Shown here: piece by piece, positions 1,546 through 19,255 of the stretch
Position numbering within the stretch: the stretch's first letter is position 1
Layout of the letters: the number at the start of each line of letters is the position of its first letter
IMG/VR virus record: IMGVR_UViG_3300032322_001667
Coordinates: 1-29,683 of that record
Source: a virus
Direction: 5' to 3' (one strand)
Length of the DNA stretch: 29,683 bases
Program-made: the position numbers and the translations under genes
The notes under the pieces: model-generated
The model's database searches: none
Told to the model about the DNA's origin: nothing
Seen by the model: only the letters and a program-made list of their open reading frames with translations

Positions 1546-3412
1546 ATCGCTCCCCCTCCTCACCTTCAGCGGCCAGCGGCAGGTCCGGCGCCCATTTCGG
1601 CGGCACGACCAACAGCGTCTCCAGGTCCCGCGGCGACCCTCGACCCGCGAGAGGCTCCGTGACCACCTCATCATGCACTGTGAGCACCACCGGCATGTCC
1701 TCCTCCTCGGCGCGGAACATGCCATCAATCATGATGTCCCGGCAAGATGCCTGTGTCACTCGTTCCACGATCAACCCGCCATAGAGCGGCACGCGGCCCT
1801 TTTTCGGGTGGACCACGGTCAGGCTCGGGTGTTCGCTCCATTCATCGTGCTCGAACCGCGGCGCCGGCCAGAGAAGCTCCCGACCGCTATGCAGACGGCA
1901 GACTAGATACCCATCCCGCGTGAAGAACTGGATGCCGCGGACTTCATGCACGCCGCCGTCCACCACGGCCTTCGTCGCCGCCTTGTCGCAGTCCCACCAG
2001 AGCCGCGGAACCCGCCACCAGCGGGTCCGGTAGGTCTGCACCAGCCGCTCCGCGAAGTCGGGGCTGTAGCGCAGGCCATACTGGACACGCGCCTGCTCCG
2101 CCAGGGTCGCCGGGCCGCACTGATAGCCGCAACCCAGCAGGGCCACCTTGCCGTTCTGCCGCTCGTCCTTGTGGACGCCCTTGATCACCCGGTAGCCGTA
2201 GATTGTGGTGGCGAGATCGCAGTAGAGGCACTCGCCCCGGCGGTAGAAGTCAAGCGCGTCGTCGTGCCCCGCCCACCAGAACAGGAAGCGTGGCTCGATC
2301 GCGTTCAGGTCCGCCCGCCGCAGCACGCGCCCTGGCGCGGCGATCAGCAGCGGGCGGAGGGCGTCGGAGGCGGCGGTGAACACCGAGCCATAGACCGCCT
2401 CGATGAAGGCGCGATTGCCCGCCCGGAAGGCGGTCGGGTCCACCTTCTGCGTCGGGCGCGGGAAGTTCTGCGGTTGCACGAGCCGACCGGCCCAGCGACC
2501 AGTGTTGGCCCCGTGATATTGAAGTAGACCCCGCACGCGCCCGTCGCTCATCACGCAACCGAGCATCTTCTCCAGCTTTTTCACCGCGGCGCCGGCGGCG
2601 TCCGCGCGGATCTCCAGCACCTCCCGCACCGTCGGGTCCAGGTCGCGCCGCAGCAGCGTCTCCTCGACCGTCGCGGCCTGGAGGTTCGGCAGGACCAGGC
2701 CCCGCGTCGCGGCCCAGGTGATGATGCGGGCGGCTTGGGTCTGCTTCTCGACCGCACCGCCGGTCAGCGCCGGCAGCCGCGCATGAACCTCGGCGTTGGC
2801 CTCAGCCAGCATCGCCTTGATCGCCCGCGTGCTCTGCACGTCAAGGCCGACCCCGCGCTGGTTGATCCTCGCGTCGAACAGGTAGATCTGCCGCTCGCGC
2901 GAGGGCAGCGGCGGCAGCCGGGCGAGCGCCTGCGCCTCGGCGCGAACGTCCTGGAGGCAGTAGGAGTGCGTCAGCGCCAGGCGCCCGGGGTCGATTGGCC
3001 GGGCCGCCTTGGCGCACTCTCTCATCGCCCGGTAGCCCGTCATGTCCTTCTGCGCGGCGAGGCCCATTGCCTCCGCCAGCTTCTCCAAGGACAGAGGCCA
3101 GCCGGCCGCGGCGGCGCGCGCCATCGTGCAATCGAACGCCTCCGGCGGCAGTTCGGGCAGGTCCGGCACCATCCGGCGCAGCGGCCCGTTCCAGATGGCG
3201 CGCTCAAAGGCGGCGTTGTGGGCGTGCAGCGGCCAGGGTGCGTTCCGCACCACGTCGGGGAACGGCTCGCCGGGTGCCCAGAGATCGGGCGCGTCCATAC
3301 CTTCGCCCTGATAGGCGAGGCAGAGCACCGTCGTAGAGGGATCTTCCGCGTAGCGGTGCGCGCCCACCTCGGTCACATCAAGGCGGCTGCGCGTCTCGAA
3401 ATCGAGGAGCAT
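1535..3412 (-). CDS. Family A DNA polymerase with 3'-5' exonuclease
   Basis: A 625-residue replicative polymerase. The exonuclease domain comes first: DFETRS at 4-9 (Exo I), a central segment around HNAAFE at 65-70 (Exo II), and YCLQDVRAE near 151-159 (Exo III). The polymerase domain carries TGRWAGR at 304-310, motif A DLNAIEPR at 368-375, motif B with K422 and LGCGYQCG to 433, and motif C VHDEVV with HDE near 580-582. No 5'-3' nuclease domain is present, as usual for phage enzymes. The start is ambiguous between tandem ATGs at 3415 and 3412: the GGAGGA ribosome site abuts 3415 and is four bases from 3412, so 3412 was taken. Either choice overlaps the stop of the PAPS-reductase-like gene. It sits beside SSB and RecB-like genes, a conserved phage replication grouping. 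Confidence 0.95.
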   Translation of the reverse strand: MLLDFETRSRLDVTEVGAHRYAEDPSTTVLCLAYQGEGMDAPDLWAPGEPFPDVVRNAPWPLHAHNAAFERAIWNGPLRRMVPDLPELPPEAFDCTMARAAAAGWPLSLEKLAEAMGLAAQKDMTGYRAMRECAKAARPIDPGRLALTHSYCLQDVRAEAQALARLPPLPSRERQIYLFDARINQRGVGLDVQSTRAIKAMLAEANAEVHARLPALTGGAVEKQTQAARIITWAATRGLVLPNLQAATVEETLLRRDLDPTVREVLEIRADAAGAAVKKLEKMLGCVMSDGRVRGLLQYHGANTGRWAGRLVQPQNFPRPTQKVDPTAFRAGNRAFIEAVYGSVFTAASDALRPLLIAAPGRVLRRADLNAIEPRFLFWWAGHDDALDFYRRGECLYCDLATTIYGYRVIKGVHKDERQNGKVALLGCGYQCGPATLAEQARVQYGLRYSPDFAERLVQTYRTRWWRVPRLWWDCDKAATKAVVDGGVHEVRGIQFFTRDGYLVCRLHSGRELLWPAPRFEHDEWSEHPSLTVVHPKKGRVPLYGGLIVERVTQASCRDIMIDGMFRAEEEDMPVVLTVHDEVVTEPLAGRGSPRDLETLLVVPPKWAPDLPLAAEGEEGERYGK

Positions 3413-4323
3413 CATTCCTCCGGGGTGGTGTCGGTGAAGTCCACCTCGCAACTCTCAGAGCGGGTCCCCCCCGTCTGGTCAAGATCCGGCACGAACACCT
3501 GGGCGTCATCGTCTGCCGGCCGGAAGGTGCCCTCCGCGAGCCGCGTCGCCAGATCCCCCCGGATCGTTTGCACGTCGGCGTTCCCCCGAAAAAACGTGCG
3601 CCTGTAGCCCTCTGGCAGCGTCCCCGGCGGCTTGGCGAACTCCGGCCCGACGTGGCCGTAGAGGCGCTCCATCCGCCCCGGGAACTCGAACACCTGTGGG
3701 CTCTCATGCATCAGCGTCAAGTGCTTCCGCCGGGACTTTTTCCAGCACCACTTGCAGTTGCCTTGGTATCCCTTGAGTCGCAGCCGGAAGGGCTGGGCCG
3801 CCCACCAGGAGTTGACCATCGGCTTCGTCACGCCCCAATGCACCAGGGGGTAGAACAAGTTCCGGGTTGTGCTTTCCGCCACCCGGTCCACCTCGTCCGC
3901 CCGAATGCCGACCGCCGTCTCGAAGTCCTTCTCCTGCCACCCAAGCGATCGGGTGAAACTCTGGATCGGCCGGAGTTTCAAGGACCGCGTGCAGTCGGGA
4001 TACTTCGAGTTCGGGATACCGTATTTCTTGATGACTTCCTCGAAAGGCTGCCCTTGCCGCGAGGCCGTCGCGTAGTCCACGACGCGGTGCGTCGGGCTCC
4101 GACGCGCTCCATGATGCACTTCGGCCTCGATCCACCACACATCCCAGCCGAAATGCTGTTCGCATTGCCAGATGAACTCCAGCGTCTCCTCATTCTCCTG
4201 GCCTGTGTTGGCGAACACGAGGCGGATACTATCCCAGGAGCGGCCGGGGAAGCCTTCCGTGAGCAGCCGATGCGTCATGTAGGCGGAAGTCTCGCCGCCA
4301 CTGAATGAGAGGAGCAGGTGCAT
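3412..4323 (-). CDS. PAPS-reductase/DndC-like N-type ATP pyrophosphatase
   Basis: A 303-residue protein. The N-terminal SFSGGETS at 6-13 is the PP-loop of N-type ATP pyrophosphatases, the fold shared by PAPS reductase, ATP sulfurylase CysD and the DNA phosphorothioation enzyme DndC. Further family features are CTRSLKLRP at 111-119, GIRADE at 139-144 and a CKWC pair at 190-193; together with C111 these cysteines could hold an Fe-S cluster or zinc. The acidic C-terminus (from about 270) is probably disordered. The substrate cannot be read from sequence: sulfate reduction, thiolation of DNA or RNA, or another adenylation are all possible. The gene lies between SSB and DNA polymerase and overlaps the latter, which favours a nucleic-acid role. 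The start is fixed by the PP-loop being only five residues in; no ribosome site lies directly before it (see the hairpin entry). Confidence 0.85.
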   Translation of the reverse strand: MHLLLSFSGGETSAYMTHRLLTEGFPGRSWDSIRLVFANTGQENEETLEFIWQCEQHFGWDVWWIEAEVHHGARRSPTHRVVDYATASRQGQPFEEVIKKYGIPNSKYPDCTRSLKLRPIQSFTRSLGWQEKDFETAVGIRADEVDRVAESTTRNLFYPLVHWGVTKPMVNSWWAAQPFRLRLKGYQGNCKWCWKKSRRKHLTLMHESPQVFEFPGRMERLYGHVGPEFAKPPGTLPEGYRRTFFRGNADVQTIRGDLATRLAEGTFRPADDDAQVFVPDLDQTGGTRSESCEVDFTDTTPEE

Positions 4324-9727: not shown

Positions 9728-10038
9728 CAGAAGAAGGGCTGCCAGTCCTTCGTGGCGCGAACCGTCAGCGTGCCGCCGGTGATGGCGGTCACGTTGATGC
9801 GGTATTCCACGTCACGCTCCACCTCCTCCAGCGTCTCGGTCTGCCCCGCCTCGTAGGTCACGGGCTGGCCGAGGGCGACGATCGTGAACCAGTTCGTGTC
9901 GCCCACGCGCCGGCGCTGCACGCTCGCCTCGACGCCGGTGCCGCCGTCGAACCAGATGTTGAAACGGCCGCGGATCACCCCGAGGGCGATCGTCCCCACG
10001 GTGCTTCGGCTGCCGGACAGGACGTAGTTAACGGACAT
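9727..10038 (-). CDS. Small beta-rich phage protein, unknown role
   Basis: A 103-residue protein with alternating hydrophobic and polar residues throughout, predicting a beta sandwich. The pattern of an RR-containing strand, an NWF turn, then an EEVE..VEYRINV segment near the C-terminus resembles small beta proteins that often follow tail-fibre genes in alphaproteobacterial phages (recalled, not verified). There is no signal peptide or membrane span. The start at 10038 was chosen for its GGAGG ribosome site about 10 bases upstream; an open frame extends 31 codons further but would cover most of the lipoprotein C-terminal coding region. It overlaps the lipoprotein gene by 11 bases. It is probably structural. 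Confidence 0.65.
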   Translation of the reverse strand: MSVNYVLSGSRSTVGTIALGVIRGRFNIWFDGGTGVEASVQRRRVGDTNWFTIVALGQPVTYEAGQTETLEEVERDVEYRINVTAITGGTLTVRATKDWQPFF

Positions 10039-10315
10039 CGCAACGAACCTCCAGAAACGTGCGGGCGACCGCCGCAGCGATGCGCTCATCTTTGCTCGGG
10101 AGCCGCTCCCCGGCTGCGTTCGCCGCGTCATAGACCGCCACGGCCAGGCGGGCGTTCTCGCAGGAATCCTCCGGCGGCGAGGCGCAGGCGGTCAGCAGCA
10201 GCGCCACCACGACCAGGATCGCCACCGCGGTCAGCGGCCCGCGCGGGGCGCCCAGAGAAGGGCCATCCTTCCAGCCGGAGCCGGATGTCGGGCGGGGCCA
10301 GATCCAGGGGTTCAC
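10028..10315 (-). CDS. Small lipoprotein in the lysis region
   Basis: A 95-residue protein with a hydrophobic segment (about 29-43) ending in a lipobox, LTAC, with the lipidated cysteine at 44. The mature part is about 50 residues, charged and helical, with two more cysteines (52 and 92). The n-region before the hydrophobic core is unusually long (28 residues, two basic). It starts at a GTG that overlaps the holin stop (GTGA). Position next to the holin suggests an outer-membrane component of lysis, such as an o-spanin, but the mature part is not proline-rich as o-spanins usually are, and no matching i-spanin was found. A superinfection-exclusion lipoprotein is an alternative. Confidence 0.65.
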   Translation of the reverse strand: MNPWIWPRPTSGSGWKDGPSLGAPRGPLTAVAILVVVALLLTACASPPEDSCENARLAVAVYDAANAAGERLPSKDERIAAAVARTFLEVRCDVR

Positions 10316-10527
10316 GGCTTGAGTCCCCCGCGCGCGGCCTTGGCCTTTTCGACCCAGGACCAGACGAGCACCCCGAGGGCACCCAGCGCGCCGAGGCCCG
10401 TGCTCAGCAGGTCCACCGCCTCCGTGGCCTGCTCGGGCGCAATCAGGCCCGCGCTGGCGAGGCCGCCCGCTGCAAAGGCGAGCAGCGTCCGCGCGACGCC
10501 GGCGATCTGGCTGGAGATCAAAGTCAT
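10312..10527 (-). CDS. Holin candidate, two membrane segments
   Basis: A 71-residue protein with two hydrophobic stretches, roughly 7-29 (gly/ala-rich) and 43-58, joined by a short acidic turn (PEQATEAVD), and a basic C-terminus (EKAKAARGGLKP). Size, topology and basic tail fit class II holins, which make holes in the inner membrane at the end of infection. A GGAGG ribosome site lies 6-7 bases before the ATG, and the ATG overlaps the preceding stop as ATGA. A longer open frame upstream is ignored because it lies inside the neighbouring coiled-coil gene. The next gene encodes a lipoprotein. Confidence 0.72.
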   Translation of the reverse strand: MTLISSQIAGVARTLLAFAAGGLASAGLIAPEQATEAVDLLSTGLGALGALGVLVWSWVEKAKAARGGLKP

Positions 10528-10739
10528 GGTGCGCCTCCGGTGAGGACCTTGTAGGCCCAGGTCAGGATTCCGCCGAGCACTCCCGCGGCGGACAGGGCAA
10601 ACGCGCCGACTCTCCAGCCTCCGCGAGCCTGCGAAAGCAGATCCCGGAACTCGCGAAGCTCCGTTCGTAGCTCCTGCACTTCCTGGCGCAGTTGCCGAAC
10701 CTGCTCTCGGGTTTCCCCGAACGCCTGGGGGTCGATCAT
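10524..10739 (-). CDS. Coiled-coil, single-TM protein (XhlA/holin-like)
   Basis: A 71-residue protein. Residues 9-42 are Gln/Glu/Arg/Leu-rich with heptad spacing (coiled coil), and about 46-66 form one membrane span near the C-terminus. A cytoplasmic coil followed by a C-terminal anchor is the layout of XhlA-like haemolysin/holin accessory proteins, and is the reverse of an i-spanin, which has its span first. It has a GGAGG ribosome site 7 bases from the ATG and overlaps the holin gene, so both are likely made together and may form the membrane lesion jointly. Function is inferred from topology and neighbours. Confidence 0.65.
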   Translation of the reverse strand: MIDPQAFGETREQVRQLRQEVQELRTELREFRDLLSQARGGWRVGAFALSAAGVLGGILTWAYKVLTGGAP

Positions 10740-10763
10740 TCGCGCCTCCGCTTCCCCTCCGCC

Positions 10764-11318
10764 CTACCACGACGAGGCGCTGCCGTCAACCTTCATGATG
10801 TCGTCCATCACCGCCAACAGCGCCGCGAACGTCGCTCGGGCGTAGGGCGCTAGGTGCTCCGCGTCACGCAGCGCCTTGACGAACGCCTCCGCCGCCGCCG
10901 GCATCGGGTAGATGACGTGCGCCGAGGCGTAACCAATCCCGCCCATCATGCGGGCCAATACCTGACCGCCGCGCCGATGCGCGCCGTGCAACACATAGGC
11001 CGCGCCCAGCACCGCGGGCGGAGTGAACTCTCCCTCCCCCGCAGCGTCCGAGATCCCTTGCGCGAATCGCTCTGCCGGCGCGGGCAGCCGCGCAGCCACC
11101 CCGAACATCGCGCGCATCGTGGCCATATCCACGTCCAGTAGCGCGACGCGCGCGAGGAGCGCCGGCAGGTGCGGGTCGATGGCCTCGTGGATGGTGCGGA
11201 ACGCCATCAGCCAGTCCGCCCATTCCTGGGCGCTGATGGTGCCCGCGCTCATCCGTTGACCAAGCGGGTGCTGCTCGCAAGCGTGATGCAGTTCCCGTGT
11301 GGCTAGGTAAAGGCTCAT
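10764..11318 (-). CDS. Heme oxygenase-like protein
   Basis: A 184-residue, mainly helical protein. The N-terminus has ATRELHHACE at 6-15, which matches the conserved ATKEVH-type segment of heme oxygenases; H11 would be the proximal heme ligand. In the second half, GAAYVL at 105-110 and RRGGQVLAR at 115-123 match the distal helix, whose glycine pair lets oxygen reach the heme. Canonical bacterial enzymes read YVLEGSxLGG; here one extra residue lies between YVL and GG, and the Glu and Ser are replaced (His111, Ala113), so activity is uncertain. The size is normal for bacterial heme oxygenases (about 180-200). It lies between the fibre genes and the membrane lysis genes, overlapping the former by ATGA. 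No bilin reductase or phytochrome gene is nearby. TenA/PqqC-type relatives of the same fold are a less likely alternative. Confidence 0.68.
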   Translation of the reverse strand: MSLYLATRELHHACEQHPLGQRMSAGTISAQEWADWLMAFRTIHEAIDPHLPALLARVALLDVDMATMRAMFGVAARLPAPAERFAQGISDAAGEGEFTPPAVLGAAYVLHGAHRRGGQVLARMMGGIGYASAHVIYPMPAAAEAFVKALRDAEHLAPYARATFAALLAVMDDIMKVDGSASSW

Positions 11319-12505
11319 ACCGTGGCCACCACCTCGGTCAGAAGCAGCGTGCCGACCCAACGCAGCGTCTTATCGGCCTCACCCGTGGCGTTCACCGCGA
11401 GATACCCGTTCGTCGCGTTGGCGCTGACGCCGAGGGTGGCGCCGGTGCTGTTGTTGGCCCCCAGCCCGGCGTCCGCCCCGATCACGGTGATCGTCGGAGT
11501 GCCGAGCAGCGCGACCGATGCGGCGTTGGCCCCCCGCTTGATGGCCCCCGAGATCTCCCACGCCTTGCTGTCGCCCACCGTGCCCGCCGAGCCCCCGACC
11601 TGGCGGCAGACGACCTGCCCCCGGAAGGCATACACGCTGTTGTTCGGCATCACCGGCATGTTATCCGCGGTGAGCCCGCCGTTGTTCGTGGTGATTGTCT
11701 GCCCGGCGGCGCCAGTGGTGGTCTCGCGGCGGATCACAACGAGGCTGGCTTGGGCGGTCCCGAGATTGGAGGAGCCCGTGTCGCCAACAAAGCCGCCATG
11801 CCCCGAGAACACGATGCGCCCGGTGGTGCCACGGGTCGTGCCGCGCGAGCCGCCCACCACCACCGAGCGGGCGCCATCCGCCACGTTGCTGCCCCCGCCG
11901 CAAACGACTGCGAGGGTGCCCGAGGCCGTGTTGCCGTTCCCGCCGCCGACAGTCGTTTGGGCGGCGGACGCGACGTTCGTGGTGCCGCCGGCAATGGTGG
12001 CCGAGGCCCCGCCCGAAAGGAGATTGTCCTGGCCCCCACCGATGGTGCCGGTCACGGCGGATGTGTCGATCTTGTTCCGCCGACCGCCGCTGATGACCGA
12101 GCGATTGGCCGCGGCCACCTGGTCGGCGTTCGTGCGCTCGTTCTGGAAGTCGATCGCCGCCTCGCCGCGCTTGTTGCCGCCGGCGATCGTGTTGTCCGGC
12201 ACGTCGATTGAGAGCGCCCCGATGCCCCGCAGCGCGATCGCCACGTCCACGTTCGTCTCCGGCGCCAGTTGTGCGTCCTGCCCGAGCACGAGCACCGGCC
12301 GGCCGGGCGAGGCGTTCGGCCCCGTGCGATCGAAAAACTGCGGGGTGTTCAGCAACCAGGAGGTGCCGTTGCTGAAATACATCTGGCCGTCCTGGCCATA
12401 GACGAAGGCGCCGGCATACGCCGCCGCGGAAAGCGTGATGGGCACCGGCTGAGCCACGCCGAAGCCGAGGAGAGGGGCGCTGCGCCCGGAGGCGAAAGTG
12501 GTCAT
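11315..12505 (-). CDS. Tail fibre with YadA-head-like repeats
   Basis: A 396-residue protein. Residues 30-60 contain a short MYFSNGTSW segment common in phage fibres. Residues 137-220 carry about five 15-16-residue repeats of the pattern [V/I]xGGGxxNxAxGxxAx, the left-handed beta-roll of trimeric autotransporter heads such as YadA. The C-terminal part from about 300 (AWEISG, ATLGVSANA, LRWVGTLLLTEV) is a beta-rich tip type found at the ends of many phage fibres. It is likely a trimeric receptor-binding or side-fibre protein. The ATG overlaps the stop of the 156-residue protein (ATGA), and its own stop overlaps the heme-oxygenase-like start. Confidence 0.78.
   Translation of the reverse strand: MTTFASGRSAPLLGFGVAQPVPITLSAAAYAGAFVYGQDGQMYFSNGTSWLLNTPQFFDRTGPNASPGRPVLVLGQDAQLAPETNVDVAIALRGIGALSIDVPDNTIAGGNKRGEAAIDFQNERTNADQVAAANRSVISGGRRNKIDTSAVTGTIGGGQDNLLSGGASATIAGGTTNVASAAQTTVGGGNGNTASGTLAVVCGGGSNVADGARSVVVGGSRGTTRGTTGRIVFSGHGGFVGDTGSSNLGTAQASLVVIRRETTTGAAGQTITTNNGGLTADNMPVMPNNSVYAFRGQVVCRQVGGSAGTVGDSKAWEISGAIKRGANAASVALLGTPTITVIGADAGLGANNSTGATLGVSANATNGYLAVNATGEADKTLRWVGTLLLTEVVATV
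11846..12097 (-). repeat. Coding repeats for a YadA-type beta-roll
   Basis: About five degenerate units of 45-48 bases encode residues 137-220 of the fibre. Each unit carries a GG or GGG box followed by an N-x-A/S-x-G turn. The units are diverged at DNA level. Confidence 0.65.
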
Positions 12506-12972
12506 GGAACAACCCCTATGTGTTCGGCGGACAGGCGTTCTTCCCCCGCCCCCCAGAGATCAAAGACACTCGCGGCCTCAGCCCGCACCTGGAGGCGATC
12601 CCCGTGCGTTCCGGATGCCGTGCGCTTGGTCAGGCTCCGGCCTTGGACAGGAATGAAAGCGGTGTCCCCGGCCGGCACGGTCACCCGCCCAGGGGACAGG
12701 ATGTGGGTCCCGTCCTCCAGCGTCAGCCGAACCTCGATCCACCGGGCCGTTGCGGTCTTATTATGCACCGCGAGGGGCGTCAGCAGAAAGATCTCGCCTG
12801 GCCGGATAGCGCGCGAGGCGTCCAACGGGTCCCGGACAAGGAACCGCTCCGAGGGATCCGGGACTGAGAAATCCGGCGCGTCGGCTATCGCAGTCCAGGT
12901 GTCTGGGACATTGACTTGCGTGAGAGTCAGAGGCCGGCCGCCCGAAGGCGTCTGACAGGTGATGCGTGCCAT
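12502..12972 (-). CDS. Tail-fibre-associated protein of unknown function
   Basis: A 156-residue, beta-rich soluble protein lying between two fibre genes and overlapping both (TGATG before, ATGA after). There is no signal peptide, membrane segment or enzymatic motif. The arrangement of short strands around IFLLTPLAVHNKT, RWIEVRLTLEDG and the glycine/proline turns suggests a small immunoglobulin-like or sandwich fold, suitable for a fibre adaptor, fibre tip or assembly factor. The neighbouring genes are the only guide to its role, so a receptor-binding accessory or chaperone is an inference. Confidence 0.7.
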   Translation of the reverse strand: MARITCQTPSGGRPLTLTQVNVPDTWTAIADAPDFSVPDPSERFLVRDPLDASRAIRPGEIFLLTPLAVHNKTATARWIEVRLTLEDGTHILSPGRVTVPAGDTAFIPVQGRSLTKRTASGTHGDRLQVRAEAASVFDLWGAGEERLSAEHIGVVP

Positions 12973-15188
12973 CAGAAACTCCCCGAGAGCGCAGCCTTGA
13001 AGGCCGCGCGACGAACTGCCCCATCAAACGGCGGGCCGCCCAACTCCCCCGTGTCCGCACTGATCTCCAGCCCGCCCACGAAGATCGCGTTGCCCACGTC
13101 ATCCTGACCGGAAGCGACGACCACGCCCTCGTCCTCCTCCAAGATGCTGTCCCGGATCGTCGCACGGTTGTTGGCGGGCGGGATCTTCGCCAGCGCCACG
13201 CCGGCCATGACCGCGGTCCAGGTATGGCCGATCGCCGTGATGCGGCTCGGTTCCGACAAGAACACGGGGGCGGTCAACGTCGTGTTCAGCGCCGTCTCCA
13301 GCGCCGTCACGATGGCCTGCGCGTCCCCGGAAACCGGCAGCGTGATGATGTCGTCCTTCAGCACCTCGAAGGCCCGCAGATAGGCGGGCTCCTTCCCTGC
13401 GTCATAGACCGTTGCGCCGGAGGTGTCGAACAACACCCGCGCGAAGTTGAGCATCGGCTCCTCATCCGCGTATTCGAGCACCCAGCGCAACGCGCGCAGG
13501 AACAGCGCCGCCTTCGCGCGGAGGGTGGCCTCATCGCCAGCCGACCACCCGGTAGTGAGGCTCTCAGAGACGAGCGTGGCCCACATGTCGTCGATCAGAT
13601 CGTCCGAGTTGGCTTCGATCAACGCCTCGTCCGCGGTCTCGACGGTGAACGTGGCGCCGCTCTGCTCCGGAACCACGATGTCGCGCGCCCCCTTGGCGTG
13701 CATCGAGAAGTCCCCGAACTGCGTCGAGCACGCGGACAGGATGATCTGGCCCCCATCGAGCGCATAGAAATGCTTGTGCGCCCACATACTCACCGCGTTC
13801 ACCGCGTTGATCAACCCGCCGTTCTTGGCGCAGTAGCCGATGCCGTTGTGGCTGACCGGCGTCGCACCCCAGGTCATGATGTTGGGGAAGGCGCTATACT
13901 CGCTGCACACCGCGCCGTCCGCCAGCACAACCCCCGCGCCGCGCCCCACCGCCGGGTTCTGGTTGTCCCGATCCAAGGGCGGCGGGACCAACGTCCAGGT
14001 GCGGTCGCTGCGGATGGCGCACTTGTGCGCGTATGGCACGCGGTTGATGACCGCGCCGGGGCGGAAGCTGAAGGCGAATCCCTCGGTCGGATTGTCCAGG
14101 TCGTCCAGCCGAAAGCCCTCGATCATCAGGCCCTCGACGTAGCAGCCCGAACCCATCCTGAAAACATTGCGTTCTTCGTAGCCGGCAGCCGGCCGGATGA
14201 CCACGACCCGGTGGGGCGCGGTGATCGCCACATCATCGGGTAGGTCGAGATGCCCCTCGGTCTCATAGGTGCCCGGCATGATCTGAATCAGGCAGGGCTT
14301 CACCGCTGCGGCGGCCAGCACAAGCGCCCGCTCGATCGTCAGCACCGCGCTGCCCAGCGAGGTTCCCGCGTTCGCGTCATCCCCGAACTTCTGAACGTAG
14401 ATCGTCTGCGCCACGGGAGCCCCCGTGGTGGAAGCGATGGGGCCGGCATCGAACCATTGGCCGCCTGACCAGATGTAGATCCGGATGGACCCATTGGCAA
14501 CAAGACCCCAAGCCTCGCCGTTGTTGGCGGAACCCGGGCGGCTGGCAAGGGTCGTGCCGGTCCCGATAAGCTCAATGCCGACGAAGTTCCCCGGGTCCCC
14601 CTTCTGCCCCGTCAAGCCCTGCGGGCCTTGGGCGCCTTGCACCCCCTGCACCCCCTGGAGGCCCCGCGGTCCCTGAGCGCCGGCCGGCCCTTGCGGACCG
14701 GGCAACGGGGTGAAATAGGCCAACTGGCCCGCGGCGCCGAACCCGAGGTATTTGTTGGCCCGCGCCGTGGCGCCGAGTAAGTCCGGAACGCCCGCCGTCT
14801 CGGGCACCCGAAGGGCGCGGAGCCGGATGTCCGCCATGAGCGCCTGGAGGTCCTGGATCTCCAGGTCAAGCTGCTGCAACGCCATCACCGCTTCATCGAA
14901 GCGGCGCTCCACACGATCGGCCGCCAGCGGCGCCCCCGGACGGAACTGGTCCGGCTGCGCCAGCGGCACCTCACGGGTGATGGCGACCTTCGCGCCGTTT
15001 GCCGGTGGGGTGGAGAAGGTGACCCCCGCGGGGGATACGGTATATTGCGTGTTGAGGGTCTGCAAGACCCCGTTCACGGTGACCCGCAGGTGGGCCGGAT
15101 CCCGGTAGTCGATCGCGCCCGTCGAGAACAGAGTTGTGGCCCCATTCCCGACGTGCTCGACCCGGACAAGATCCGAGGTGATGGTCAT
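12972..15188 (-). CDS. Tail fibre, T7 gp17-type N-terminus with collagen-like linker
   Basis: A 738-residue fibre. Residues 1-100 match the T7 gp17 N-terminal attachment domain pattern (NGATTLFS, LRVTVNGV near 34-41, VTFSTPPANGAKVAI near 56-70), which docks fibres on the tail. A helical segment at 95-125 leads into about 12 collagen-like Gly-X-Y triplets at 163-200. From about 254, after YVQKFGDD, there is a right-handed beta-helix/pectin-lyase-like region (PGTYETEGHLDLPDD and following), as in many depolymerase or adhesin fibres; no catalytic residues can be named by eye. The last 90 residues (SRITAIGHTWTAV onward) form a terminal domain that I associate with phage fibre ends. It overlaps the gp16-like gene by ATGA. 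Confidence 0.85.
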   Translation of the reverse strand: MTITSDLVRVEHVGNGATTLFSTGAIDYRDPAHLRVTVNGVLQTLNTQYTVSPAGVTFSTPPANGAKVAITREVPLAQPDQFRPGAPLAADRVERRFDEAVMALQQLDLEIQDLQALMADIRLRALRVPETAGVPDLLGATARANKYLGFGAAGQLAYFTPLPGPQGPAGAQGPRGLQGVQGVQGAQGPQGLTGQKGDPGNFVGIELIGTGTTLASRPGSANNGEAWGLVANGSIRIYIWSGGQWFDAGPIASTTGAPVAQTIYVQKFGDDANAGTSLGSAVLTIERALVLAAAAVKPCLIQIMPGTYETEGHLDLPDDVAITAPHRVVVIRPAAGYEERNVFRMGSGCYVEGLMIEGFRLDDLDNPTEGFAFSFRPGAVINRVPYAHKCAIRSDRTWTLVPPPLDRDNQNPAVGRGAGVVLADGAVCSEYSAFPNIMTWGATPVSHNGIGYCAKNGGLINAVNAVSMWAHKHFYALDGGQIILSACSTQFGDFSMHAKGARDIVVPEQSGATFTVETADEALIEANSDDLIDDMWATLVSESLTTGWSAGDEATLRAKAALFLRALRWVLEYADEEPMLNFARVLFDTSGATVYDAGKEPAYLRAFEVLKDDIITLPVSGDAQAIVTALETALNTTLTAPVFLSEPSRITAIGHTWTAVMAGVALAKIPPANNRATIRDSILEEDEGVVVASGQDDVGNAIFVGGLEISADTGELGGPPFDGAVRRAAFKAALSGSF
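14589..14702 (-). repeat. Collagen-like Gly-X-Y coding repeat
   Basis: The DNA encodes about 12 consecutive Gly-X-Y triplets, with GPQ, GPR, GLQ, GVQ and GAQ units, within the fibre. The tract has short near-identical 9-base units, which makes it prone to length change. Confidence 0.8.
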
Positions 15189-18100
15189 CGTGCCCCCAGC
15201 GCGTCCATGAACACCGACCGCTTCCTCCCCCCGCTCGCTTCCTCTATTGCATCAAACGCATGGACCATGAGGAAGTGATTCTGGAATGGGATCAGCGCCC
15301 GGAGCCGCCCGATCTCATAGGGCCTGGGGGTGCGCTTGTCAAGCGGCCATTGGGCCACGGCTGCGGCACCCCGGATGGCGTCGAATCCCTTCGAGATGCC
15401 CGGCCCCGCGAGGTAACTCATCAACGACCGATCGCTGTAGCGCCTCCGGTCCTCGCCCCCGATGGTCGTCTGGAGGTTCGGCAGCCCGGCCGCCCCGAGG
15501 CCGCTATCGAAATGGTAGAGCAACCCGATCAGGCCCGAGCGGTCCACCGCGATGTTCGCCCATTGGGCCGCGGTGCGCTCCTCGACCTTGCCCTGCTTCG
15601 CGATGTCCCGCAACGCCGTCGCCGCGGCAGCCAGGCCCAGGGCCACGATGACCGTCTCCATTTGGCGCCGTGCGCCTGCCTGCATCACCGCGCCCGTCAG
15701 CTTGGCGACCGCGATCAAGGTGAAGGTGAGGAACTGCGTCATCAGGGCGCCCACGGTCGTCTGGAGCAGCAACGGCTTGTCGGCCACCGTGGGTGCCAAC
15801 AGCGCCTCGCGCGCCGTCTGGTTGACCGCCGTGCGCCACTTCTCCATCAACCCGAGGGCGTCGATGCTGGCGTCCTTGAGGGCGGGAGAAGTCAGCCACC
15901 GTTCGTAGCCGGGGTCCATCAGGTCAGGCCGGTCGGCGCGCGGCCGGGCCTCCGCCTGCATAAGCCGGCCCATCTGCTCCATGTCCCGCCGGGTCAACCC
16001 CGCGCGGGCCGCGGCACGCAGCATGTCCTCGTCTGCCGGCACGCGGCCGGCTGCGATGTCTATGAATAGCCGGGTCATTCCGTCCGTGGCGATGTTCTGC
16101 CCGAGGCCGCGCAGCGCGTCGTTCCATTGAGGCCCGAGAGTGAGCTTCGAGAACGCATTGGTGACCCGCGTGAGCCCGGCTGTGAAGCGATCGTCACCGG
16201 CCTGCACCCGTGGGCTGGCGTTCCAGACCGCCGCCTGAATGTCCCCCAGCATCAGGTCCGCCGCCGCGCCATATTGCAGATTGCCTTTCAGCTTCTCCGC
16301 GCCGCGTAGAGACTTGAGCCCCGCGGAAACCTCCCGAAACGCCTCTCCGAAGAACCGCGCGGCCCCATAGGAAAGCGTGGCCTTCGCCGCATCCGGAAGC
16401 TGCGAGAAGATCATCGGCCCCATTGTGTTCGTGTAGGTCAGGGACATCACGTTCCGGGCAGCCAGAGCCGCGCCCCGGCCGAGAGAGGAGATCTGAACGC
16501 CCCGCTGGCCGCGTGCGAGTTCGACCAACCCCCGGATCAGATCCTCATCGCCCCGCAGCTTGTCCTGGATCTCACGGGTCTGCTTCTGGCGCTGGGCCTC
16601 TGTCAAGTCCTGCCGGCGGGCGAGTTCCTCGATCGCCTGGGTTGCTTCATCGCGCAGTTCCTTGACGATCCCCATTTTCTCGTGGTTCAGCGCGCCGAAG
16701 GTGCGGAATACCTCCACGTCACGAGTGACCGTGGTGAGATACATTTCATCCAGAAAGAAGGTGTTGCGAAGCAGGAAGCCCTCGAACTCCGCCGGATCCA
16801 CATCAAGCTCCCGCCCCTTGAGCGAGATGCGCCGCCCCGCCATGACTGTCGGGCGCTCGATCGGCCCGAAGGCAATCTCCTGCGCCATCGCCGTAGCCTC
16901 CGCCCGGATGCGCTCGGGCGAGATCACGAAGTCGAGGTCGCTCGTTTCCGTATGGAACTTCTCGATCGTGGCCTGGTCCTTGGCCCTCATCGGGTAGGAC
17001 GAGGGGCGGTTCATGGGCGGTTGCGGCAGTTCCGGGAGGGCCACGCGTTGCGACAAGAGGGCATGGGCGCGCACCACCTCCTCATGGGCGTTCCGCACCT
17101 TCTGGATGGCGTTCATCAGGCGTTCAAAATCAGGTTGGGCTGAAGGAAGCCCCCGCGCCAGTTCCCGCATCTCCCCCACAGTATCGACGCCGTAGCCCCC
17201 GGTTCGCTTGTTCACCTTCGGGTCGAAAGGACCCTCCTTCAACTCCTTGCGGAGGGCGGCCAGGTCCCGAACGCGCGCGTTTTCCGCCCCGAGGGCATCC
17301 CGCAACTGCCGCGCCTCCGCGCGCGCCGGAGCGGGCAGGCTGGTGTCCTTCGTGAGTTGGTTGATGCTTTCCGCGTAAGCGCGGCGTTCCTCCAAGCGGC
17401 CCTCCCAATCATCCACCCGTTGCGTGTATTCGTCCAGCCGCGCTTCCGCATCCCGGACCATCCGGGTCAACTGCGCCTCCAGCCGGTCAATGAACGCGGG
17501 GAGCCCCCGTTCCACCGCGCCACGGTCGAAGATCTTCGCGCCGGTATAATCTCCCGCTGAAGCGGGCCGGTAGTCTATCTCATCCCACACACCCGAGCGC
17601 GTGATGTAGTCGTGCAGTTCCCGGTAGTGCGCCTTACGCGCGTCGGAGTGCTCACGGGCCACCGGCAGCCAAGCAGGTTCCGCGGTCGCCGGCGCTCCCG
17701 GTGCAAACTCCTCAAGTTCATTGTCGAGGCGATAGATCGTCTCGTCCCAATCATGGATCGTCCCAGTGAAACCCTGCCCCTGCGCCTCGCGAAACTTTAC
17801 GTTGCGAGTGTTCATCACCCGCACGAGCGCGGTATTCTTCGCCATCTCGATGCGGGTGAGCGTCGGGGCCTGTTCTGCGACCGACAGGCCGAACTGGCTC
17901 TGGTAGGCCGCAAGTTCCTCGAACTCCTCCCGGGAGACCGCGACGCCCCGCTGCTGAAGCTCCTTGAAGGCCGCGTCGAGTTCCTGCTTCGTCATCGGCC
18001 GGGCGACCGTCGCCTCGATCTGCATCCCGGTGTCCGCGAACTGCGAGATGAACCGGCGGGAAGTCTGGAACCGCGAGGTCAGAAGCGACACGCCTGGGAA

Positions 18101-19255
18101 CTCAAGGATGCCGGTGGCGCGAAGCGCCTGAAATACCGGGCGGAACAATCCCTCATGCACCAGGCGAAGCCTCTGGTTGCGGAGCACCTCCCGCACCTGC
18201 CGATCCAGCACCTCATCCCGCAAAGCCGCGCCGACCGATCCCCCGACAAGATCCCGCGCGGGCGGCTGCGTCGCCGCGATTACCTCGTCCAGGGCGATAG
18301 TGGGCTCGTCCGCGCCTCGCGCAGGCATGGGCACCGGCTCGCCGGCCGCGCGGGGCGCCCCCTCCGCAGCCAGGATGTCCTCCAGCAACCGGGCTTGGCC
18401 CGGCGCCTGCTGCACCTCCTCCGCGCGGGCGATCAGGGATTCCAGCAACTCCCGTTCGGCACGCGCATCCAAGGGCTCGGCGCGCATTACCCGGGCGGCG
18501 TATTCCGCTGCCGCGTCGAAGGCCGCCTCACTGTCACGCAGCACGTCCGCGAGGTCCCTCCGCACGTCCGGCGTCGCGTCCTCGATCACGCCTGGCCGCA
18601 CCCAGCGCCGCACGGCCGCCCCGCCCGCGATAGCGCCCCCGACGCCCGCCAGGAGCGCGGCGCCCGTCGCGCCGCCCATCAGGATATTGGCGAAACTCTC
18701 CGATCCCTCGCGCGTCGGCTGGAGGGGCGAGATGACGGCTTCCACCAACGCGCTGCCCGCCACGCCGCCGTAGGCCCCCGCCGCCGCCAGTCGGCCCACG
18801 GTTGGCGCACGGCCGGCAACGCGTGCCATGCCGAGGATCGGGATCAGGTTCACCGGGTCCGCAATGCTGACCCCCATCACCGCCAGCCAAGGCGGCAAGG
18901 GGCCGGAGCCGATCGTCTGCTCCAAGGCGTCGCGGCGCTGGTATTGCTCTCGGAGGTTCTCGACCTCCTGCGGGCTGCGTGCCTGCGCCAGTCGGTGTCC
19001 GAACCGCTCGATCTCCGCCAGCGTCGCCCCGGCCAGGGGATCGAATCCCTCGACCGGATCCGAGGTGGGGGCGGTCGGCTGAGTGGAAGCTTCGAACAGC
19101 GCGCCCGCCGTGTTCTCCAGGAGCGCCGCCGCGCCAAGCTGCTCGACCAGCGTCGCGGATGCCGTGCTTGGCTGGAGTGCGCGGCGCGCGACCTCCAGCC
19201 CGGCCGGGTCGAACGCCAGGCCCATAGGGGTCGGCGTCCTTTGATCAATGTCCAT
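15185..19255 (-). CDS. Internal virion protein D (T7 gp16-like ejection protein)
   Basis: A 1356-residue protein, close in size to T7 gp16 (1318). Position, length and the segment LPPWLAVMGVSIADPVNLIP (about 120-139) fit the podoviral ejection protein that crosses the cell envelope with the DNA. Hydrophobic glycine/alanine-rich stretches lie at about 150-215 and again at roughly 1170-1220, and the middle is charged and helical. T7 gp16 begins with a lytic transglycosylase domain; no such domain is visible in the roughly 120 residues before the DPVNLIP-like region, so the peptidoglycan-cutting activity may be absent or supplied by another virion protein. The start overlaps the upstream stop as TAATG; the stop overlaps the fibre start. 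Confidence 0.8.
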   Translation of the reverse strand: MDIDQRTPTPMGLAFDPAGLEVARRALQPSTASATLVEQLGAAALLENTAGALFEASTQPTAPTSDPVEGFDPLAGATLAEIERFGHRLAQARSPQEVENLREQYQRRDALEQTIGSGPLPPWLAVMGVSIADPVNLIPILGMARVAGRAPTVGRLAAAGAYGGVAGSALVEAVISPLQPTREGSESFANILMGGATGAALLAGVGGAIAGGAAVRRWVRPGVIEDATPDVRRDLADVLRDSEAAFDAAAEYAARVMRAEPLDARAERELLESLIARAEEVQQAPGQARLLEDILAAEGAPRAAGEPVPMPARGADEPTIALDEVIAATQPPARDLVGGSVGAALRDEVLDRQVREVLRNQRLRLVHEGLFRPVFQALRATGILEFPGVSLLTSRFQTSRRFISQFADTGMQIEATVARPMTKQELDAAFKELQQRGVAVSREEFEELAAYQSQFGLSVAEQAPTLTRIEMAKNTALVRVMNTRNVKFREAQGQGFTGTIHDWDETIYRLDNELEEFAPGAPATAEPAWLPVAREHSDARKAHYRELHDYITRSGVWDEIDYRPASAGDYTGAKIFDRGAVERGLPAFIDRLEAQLTRMVRDAEARLDEYTQRVDDWEGRLEERRAYAESINQLTKDTSLPAPARAEARQLRDALGAENARVRDLAALRKELKEGPFDPKVNKRTGGYGVDTVGEMRELARGLPSAQPDFERLMNAIQKVRNAHEEVVRAHALLSQRVALPELPQPPMNRPSSYPMRAKDQATIEKFHTETSDLDFVISPERIRAEATAMAQEIAFGPIERPTVMAGRRISLKGRELDVDPAEFEGFLLRNTFFLDEMYLTTVTRDVEVFRTFGALNHEKMGIVKELRDEATQAIEELARRQDLTEAQRQKQTREIQDKLRGDEDLIRGLVELARGQRGVQISSLGRGAALAARNVMSLTYTNTMGPMIFSQLPDAAKATLSYGAARFFGEAFREVSAGLKSLRGAEKLKGNLQYGAAADLMLGDIQAAVWNASPRVQAGDDRFTAGLTRVTNAFSKLTLGPQWNDALRGLGQNIATDGMTRLFIDIAAGRVPADEDMLRAAARAGLTRRDMEQMGRLMQAEARPRADRPDLMDPGYERWLTSPALKDASIDALGLMEKWRTAVNQTAREALLAPTVADKPLLLQTTVGALMTQFLTFTLIAVAKLTGAVMQAGARRQMETVIVALGLAAAATALRDIAKQGKVEERTAAQWANIAVDRSGLIGLLYHFDSGLGAAGLPNLQTTIGGEDRRRYSDRSLMSYLAGPGISKGFDAIRGAAAVAQWPLDKRTPRPYEIGRLRALIPFQNHFLMVHAFDAIEEASGGRKRSVFMDALGAR

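Follow-up and report, generated by a model that had tools for sequence, protein, structure and literature searches.

The heme oxygenase-like gene and its neighbours

The window, that is the whole stretch of 29,683 nucleotides of viral DNA that was analysed, carries between its fibre and lysis genes a gene for a protein of the heme oxygenase superfamily, designated P0001 (Table 1). P0001 is the uninterrupted translation of a minus-strand open reading frame and contains ATRELHHACEQHP (with H11) and YVLHGAHRRGGQVLAR. The ATG of the gene overlaps the stop codon of the upstream gene (at 11315) as ATGA, and the start is therefore well supported. A sequence-only reading of the DNA had pointed to the segments ATRELHH (H11) and YVL...RRGGQVLAR and had placed the gene beside lysis genes; both segments are present in the translation, and the genes downstream encode a coiled-coil/membrane protein, a holin (PF23987) and a putative lipoprotein. 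The genes follow one another in the order of Table 1, and for the 396-residue fibre-like protein directly upstream neither Pfam nor PHROGs gave a match. The holin open reading frame as listed (10312-10770) begins too early; taken from an internal ATG, the holin gene has the extent given in Table 1 and overlaps the preceding gene as ATGA. Elsewhere in the window, a gene with a PAPS-reductase-type domain (3412-4323) adjoins the gene for a family A DNA polymerase.

Table 1. Genes surrounding the heme oxygenase-like gene in the window
Feature	Position	Strand	Length (aa)	Remarks
Internal virion protein	15185..19255	-	1356	phrog_342, E 8e-31
Tail fibre	12972..15188	-	738	T7-like N-terminal region (weak match) and collagen repeats
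Protein between the two fibre genes	12502..12972	-	156	No known family; relatives near the heme oxygenase-like gene in about 18 loci
Repetitive Gly-rich fibre-like protein	11315..12505	-	396	In tail-fibre cluster; stop overlaps start of the heme oxygenase-like gene (ATGA)
Heme oxygenase-superfamily protein (P0001)	10764..11318	-	184	H11 and E15 proximal; Y108-VLHGAH114-RRGG118 distal helix; R151 at HO-1 Arg183 site
Coiled-coil and membrane-segment protein	10524..10739	-	71	Directly downstream of P0001; topology read from sequence
Holin, Pam3 gp28 family	10312..10527	-	71	PF23987, E 6e-8
Putative lipoprotein, possibly a spanin component	10028..10315	-		LLLTAC lipobox, read from sequence

A phage clade of the heme oxygenase superfamily

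Relatives of P0001 were collected by scanning IMG/VR, which gave 22 confirmed relatives and then, in a second scan, 130, the best 80 of them being retained. Patterns around HHACE and GAHxxG served as seeds for this second scan, one of the two sufficing for entry, so that relatives with neither could escape it; although one motif was enough for retrieval, both are found in every family member. After removal of duplicates the family comprises about 70 distinct sequences, nearly all of them from IMG/VR. Only three relatives were found in GTDB genomes, all in Rhodobacterales. Those of Roseovarius sp. TE539 and Aliiroseovarius sp. S1123 sit in GTA-like tail modules that are probably prophages, and for the family these two bacteria are the closest sources that can be cultured. 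A tblastn search of 50,697 phage records with P0001 and three other members revealed no relative, and the protein of locus L072 gave against phage records one insignificant partial match, located in a gene for ribonucleotide reductase (E 0.6). Plasmid collections contained no relative, and a search of open-access papers for heme oxygenase with phage and tail fibre gave nothing on the family.

Taken alone, P0001 matched the Pfam family Heme_oxygenase (PF01126) with an E-value of 0.0059 and 16.9 bits, which is below the gathering cut-off of 23 bits; the claim made here is therefore for a new clade of the superfamily and not for a member of the Pfam family. NCBIfam gave no meaningful match to P0001. 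A match of P0001 to a 'DNA binding protein' family of PHROGs (E 6.7e-4) was rejected; it was partial, no single stretch of it was significant, and the other 17 members were without it.

The profiles of the family pointed in one direction only. All 19 matches of an 18-member profile in the PDB (E up to 10) were heme oxygenases, as were all 23 matches of a broader family profile (E up to 1), the best with an E-value of 4.9e-4, while hhalign of the phage family with nine cellular heme oxygenases gave 97.7% and an E-value of 1.7e-12 over 159 columns. The heme-free AlphaFold2 model of P0001 (pLDDT 93.3, pTM 0.89) had its best matches among heme oxygenase crystal structures (Z 18.7, rmsd 3.1, 176 aligned residues), with no unrelated helical family on top, and the model of the L072 protein, which is 34% identical to P0001 (pLDDT 96.1), gave a similar result (Z 18.4, rmsd 2.7, 165 aligned). 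For each of the two models all 50 listed structural matches were heme oxygenases, with neither diiron-oxygenase nor thiaminase folds among them. It is thus the heme oxygenase-only profile matches, the heme oxygenase fold in models from two distant subclades and the strong hhalign result that place P0001 in the superfamily.

In a tree with 40 cellular heme oxygenases a long stem (2.37) leads to a single group (100/99) that unites the phage proteins and is positioned beside the HO-1 type (97/89), with a warning of long-branch attraction, because of which no claim is made on the ancestral cellular enzyme. Within the heme oxygenase superfamily, P0001 and its relatives form a clade of their own that is specific to phages.

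Residues of the heme pocket

Pairwise identity in the 70-member alignment has a median of 43% and a minimum of 28%. Invariant in all 70 sequences are L3, T7, H11, H12, C14, E15, H17, G20, W36, H44, D48 and D64 as well as Y108, V109, L110, A113, H114, G117, G118, H134, R151, F164, L168 and M171; among them H44, D48, D64, H134, R151 and F164 lie outside the retrieval seeds and yet do not vary. Mapping to human HO-1, taken from HMMER alignments, equates the proximal residues His25, Glu29, Ala28 and Lys22 with H11 (70/70), E15, C14 and R8 of P0001, the distal residues Tyr134, Gly139, Asp140 and Gly143-Gly144 with Y108, A113, H114 and G117-G118, and Tyr58, Glu62 and Arg183 with H44, D48 and R151. 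By our own reading, F164 corresponds to Phe207. In HO-1, Glu29, Tyr134 and Arg183 have roles in the heme pocket.

The most telling substitution, missing from the sequence-only reading, is the invariant H114 (70/70) at the site of the distal acid Asp140; the Tyr58 site is occupied, likewise in 70 of 70, by H44. Because these two sites hold histidines, the family was not filed as HO-1 class. In HO-1, heme is ligated by His25, and a hydrogen bond from Tyr58 to Asp140 is part of a network thought to activate oxygen; the D140A mutant of the human enzyme is a peroxidase (PMC5623701).

The distal motif of the phage family is YVL[HTI]GAHxxGG. The corresponding motifs of cellular heme oxygenases (42 loci, with no such motif picked out for eight of them) are YxRYxGDxxGG in the HO-1 class or YVxEGSxLG[GA]-like in the BphO/HemO class, and a distal histidine is absent from every motif that was picked out. 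The BphO/HemO motif is not matched by the phage family, whose motif is one residue longer. The extra residue and the loss of Glu/Ser, to which the sequence-only reading had drawn attention, hold good therefore against the BphO class (YVxEGSxLGG) but not against the HO-1 class, from which the Tyr-to-GlyGly spacing does not differ. The broader claim of that reading, a heme oxygenase-like protein with H11 as the proximal histidine and an altered distal helix, is backed by the profiles, the fold and the conservation in the family.

Gene context across the family

As a rule the heme oxygenase-like gene closes a tail-fibre operon, preceded by fibre genes and by genes for a tail assembly chaperone or a DUF4376 protein. 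A member of the tail-fibre cluster, which is a single-linkage group, lies at most three genes upstream in 54 of the 66 loci with enough upstream sequence. Of ten cluster members checked, six have matches to PHROGs for tails or tail fibres, in two cases weak ones, and the remaining four match unknown families or gave nothing clear. Independently of this cluster, the gene directly upstream often encodes a tail assembly chaperone (PF16778) or DUF4376, and the start of the heme oxygenase-like gene overlaps the upstream stop by four bases (ATGA) or one base at 41 of 64 loci. The linkage to tail genes is seen both in the T7-like phage of the window and in GTA-like tail modules, in which the cassette with the heme oxygenase-like gene lies between DUF2460 and baseplate-hub (PF09931/PF09356) genes. 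The earlier emphasis on lysis thus holds for the window, where alone lysis genes were annotated, but not family-wide, the constant neighbours being the upstream tail-fibre and chaperone/DUF4376 genes. A glycosyltransferase-like/TPR protein of 353-354 residues (L042:6182-7243 and its relatives; cluster 11, 10 loci) is encoded, in a single group of phages, two to three genes upstream of the heme oxygenase-like gene.

Eleven loci are without tail-fibre linkage, and eight of these (L072, L073, L079, L080, L082, L085, L086 and L068) represent one lineage, with heme oxygenase-like proteins 77-98% identical. In this lineage the gene is found near RNase H-like and L,D-transpeptidase (YkuD) genes, with no tail genes there, and in six of its contigs near a Dps-like ferritin gene, a neighbourhood that is essentially that of a single lineage. 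Ferritin matches occur also on the contig of one tail-linked phage (L020). Some contigs of the lineage without tail linkage have a DPBB lytic-transglycolase-like gene upstream of the heme oxygenase-like gene. No bilin pathway gene had been noticed previously in the window, in agreement with which the bilin reductase Fe_bilin_red (FDBR, PF05996) was found in none of the 40 contigs searched, some of which may be fragments; nor was a 2Fe-2S ferredoxin (Fer2) found in the 40 contigs, likewise possibly fragments, that were searched for it.

Proposed function

Binding of heme through H11 is likely, in view of the heme oxygenase fold, the homology and the strongly conserved pocket. For P0001, heme binding is considered quite probable, and heme cleavage, with slightly less than an even chance, is suggested only tentatively. 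Most likely, though this is proposed with similar reserve, the protein would be expressed late, bind heme and probably also degrade it, its distal chemistry being altered. Host heme would be held between the proximal helix and the distal helix (Y108...GAH114xxGG118), with H11 as the axial ligand, hydrogen-bonded by E15, and with R151, Y108 and R8 near the heme propionates. H44 and H114 may stand in for Tyr58 and Asp140, the two residues by which HO-1 steers O2 activation, and oxidative cleavage would give iron, CO and a bilin, with reductants supplied by the host. The position in the tail operon points to late expression, and the protein would be translated together with the tail fibres; this position suggests when the protein is made, not what it does. 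A role in the timing of lysis by heme has no direct support.

Cleavage is favoured by the retained Glu, Arg and GlyGly together with the Dps neighbourhood, and release of iron would fit the Dps-like ferritin genes of the six contigs and the ferritin matches on the L020 contig. Enzymes of the BphO and HemO classes are active; since they also lack Asp140, activity is still possible without this residue. The usual chemistry is nevertheless disfavoured by the replacement of Asp140 with histidine in every member, given the peroxidase behaviour of HO-1 D140A. The cleavage reading is weakened by the absence of a bilin reductase and a 2Fe-2S ferredoxin from the contigs searched, and also by the tail-operon position, which is odd for a metabolic enzyme.

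Human HO-1 D140H reportedly has a bis-histidine heme and forms only traces of biliverdin. P0001 could instead be a non-catalytic heme binder with both H11 and H114 ligating a six-coordinate iron, which would carry, buffer or sense heme or perhaps act as a peroxidase or redox protein. This appears rather unlikely, even though such a protein would be suited by the invariant histidine at the Asp140 site, which none of the cellular distal motifs picked out contains, and the contigs searched yielded neither a bilin gene nor a reductase dedicated to the protein. That GlyGly in the distal helix, the Glu in the proximal one and the counterpart of Arg183 are all conserved suggests selection for an oxygenase pocket, and the side chain of H114 may miss the iron in a kinked helix.

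The tail linkage allows for a virion component or a factor in tail-fibre assembly or modification, with or without heme, one form of which would be a heme- or iron-bearing tail exploiting TonB-dependent receptors. The fibre cluster upstream in 54 of 66 loci, the chaperone or DUF4376 gene often directly before the gene, the short overlaps at 41 of 64 loci and the recurrence of the linkage in GTA-like modules and in the T7-like phage of the window all agree with such a role, which is nonetheless improbable: eleven loci are without the linkage, the invariant residues are mostly in the pocket, and the region between fibre and lysis genes is a common site of cargo genes in phages. Moreover, the fibre and tail genes of the window contain one HxH iron motif in all, and its fibres consequently give no Ferrojan support. 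A combined possibility, that a heme-handling protein is a functional part of the tail, whether by being packaged or joined to the fibres, with heme participating in receptor recognition or entry, or by acting as a fibre-modifying enzyme derived from a heme oxygenase, with a bis-histidine or peroxidase-like site evolved from that of the oxygenase, is doubtful to a comparable degree. It is very improbable that P0001 is a non-heme diiron oxygenase of the same fold (HDO-like, a relative of CADD/UndA/SznF) using invariant His, Asp and Glu residues, since, despite unusually many invariant potential ligands (H11, H12, C14, E15, H17, H44, D48, D64, H114 and H134), the 50 listed structural matches and the sequence profiles point to heme oxygenases alone, and the proximal His-Glu pair and GlyGly of the heme oxygenase type are kept.

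Relation to known heme oxygenases

With the HO-1 class (human HO-1 and Corynebacterium HmuO; PF01126) the phage family shares the fold, the proximal His and Glu, the equivalents of Tyr134, GlyGly and Arg183 and the Tyr-to-GlyGly spacing, but it differs by Asp140 to His114, Tyr58 to His44, Gly139 to Ala113 and Ala28 to Cys14, by an identity of about 18%, and by the lack of linkage to bilin genes in the contigs searched. With the BphO/HemO class it has in common YVL..G in the distal helix, the RxxxLxxDL region and a detectable homology, whereas its distal helix has one residue more, no EGS and an extra invariant His. The best viral fold matches to P0001 are two 'heme oxygenase' proteins of uncultured Caudovirales (A0A6J5RJ96 and A0A6J5KN38), with 18-19% identity.

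Phage heme oxygenases are already known as metabolic genes of bilin cassettes, at least one of them being active (PMC11480375), and the P0001 clade is a variant. The cassette enzyme vHemO converts heme to biliverdin IX-alpha, and the cassettes are hemO-pcyX and alaS-hemO-pcyA (PMC11480375). P0001, like cassette HemO, is a phage-encoded heme oxygenase protein; it is set apart by gene context, in that no FDBR was found in the contigs searched and that its gene is positioned in a tail operon. The family differs from the bilin-cassette heme oxygenases in its invariant Asp-to-His replacement at the very residue that decides between oxygenase and peroxidase in HO-1, and in its location in tail-fibre operons of T7-like and GTA-like phages. 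Its members offer naturally occurring variants with which the control of heme chemistry by the distal pocket can be tested, and they provide a concrete candidate for a link of phage tails to heme or iron.
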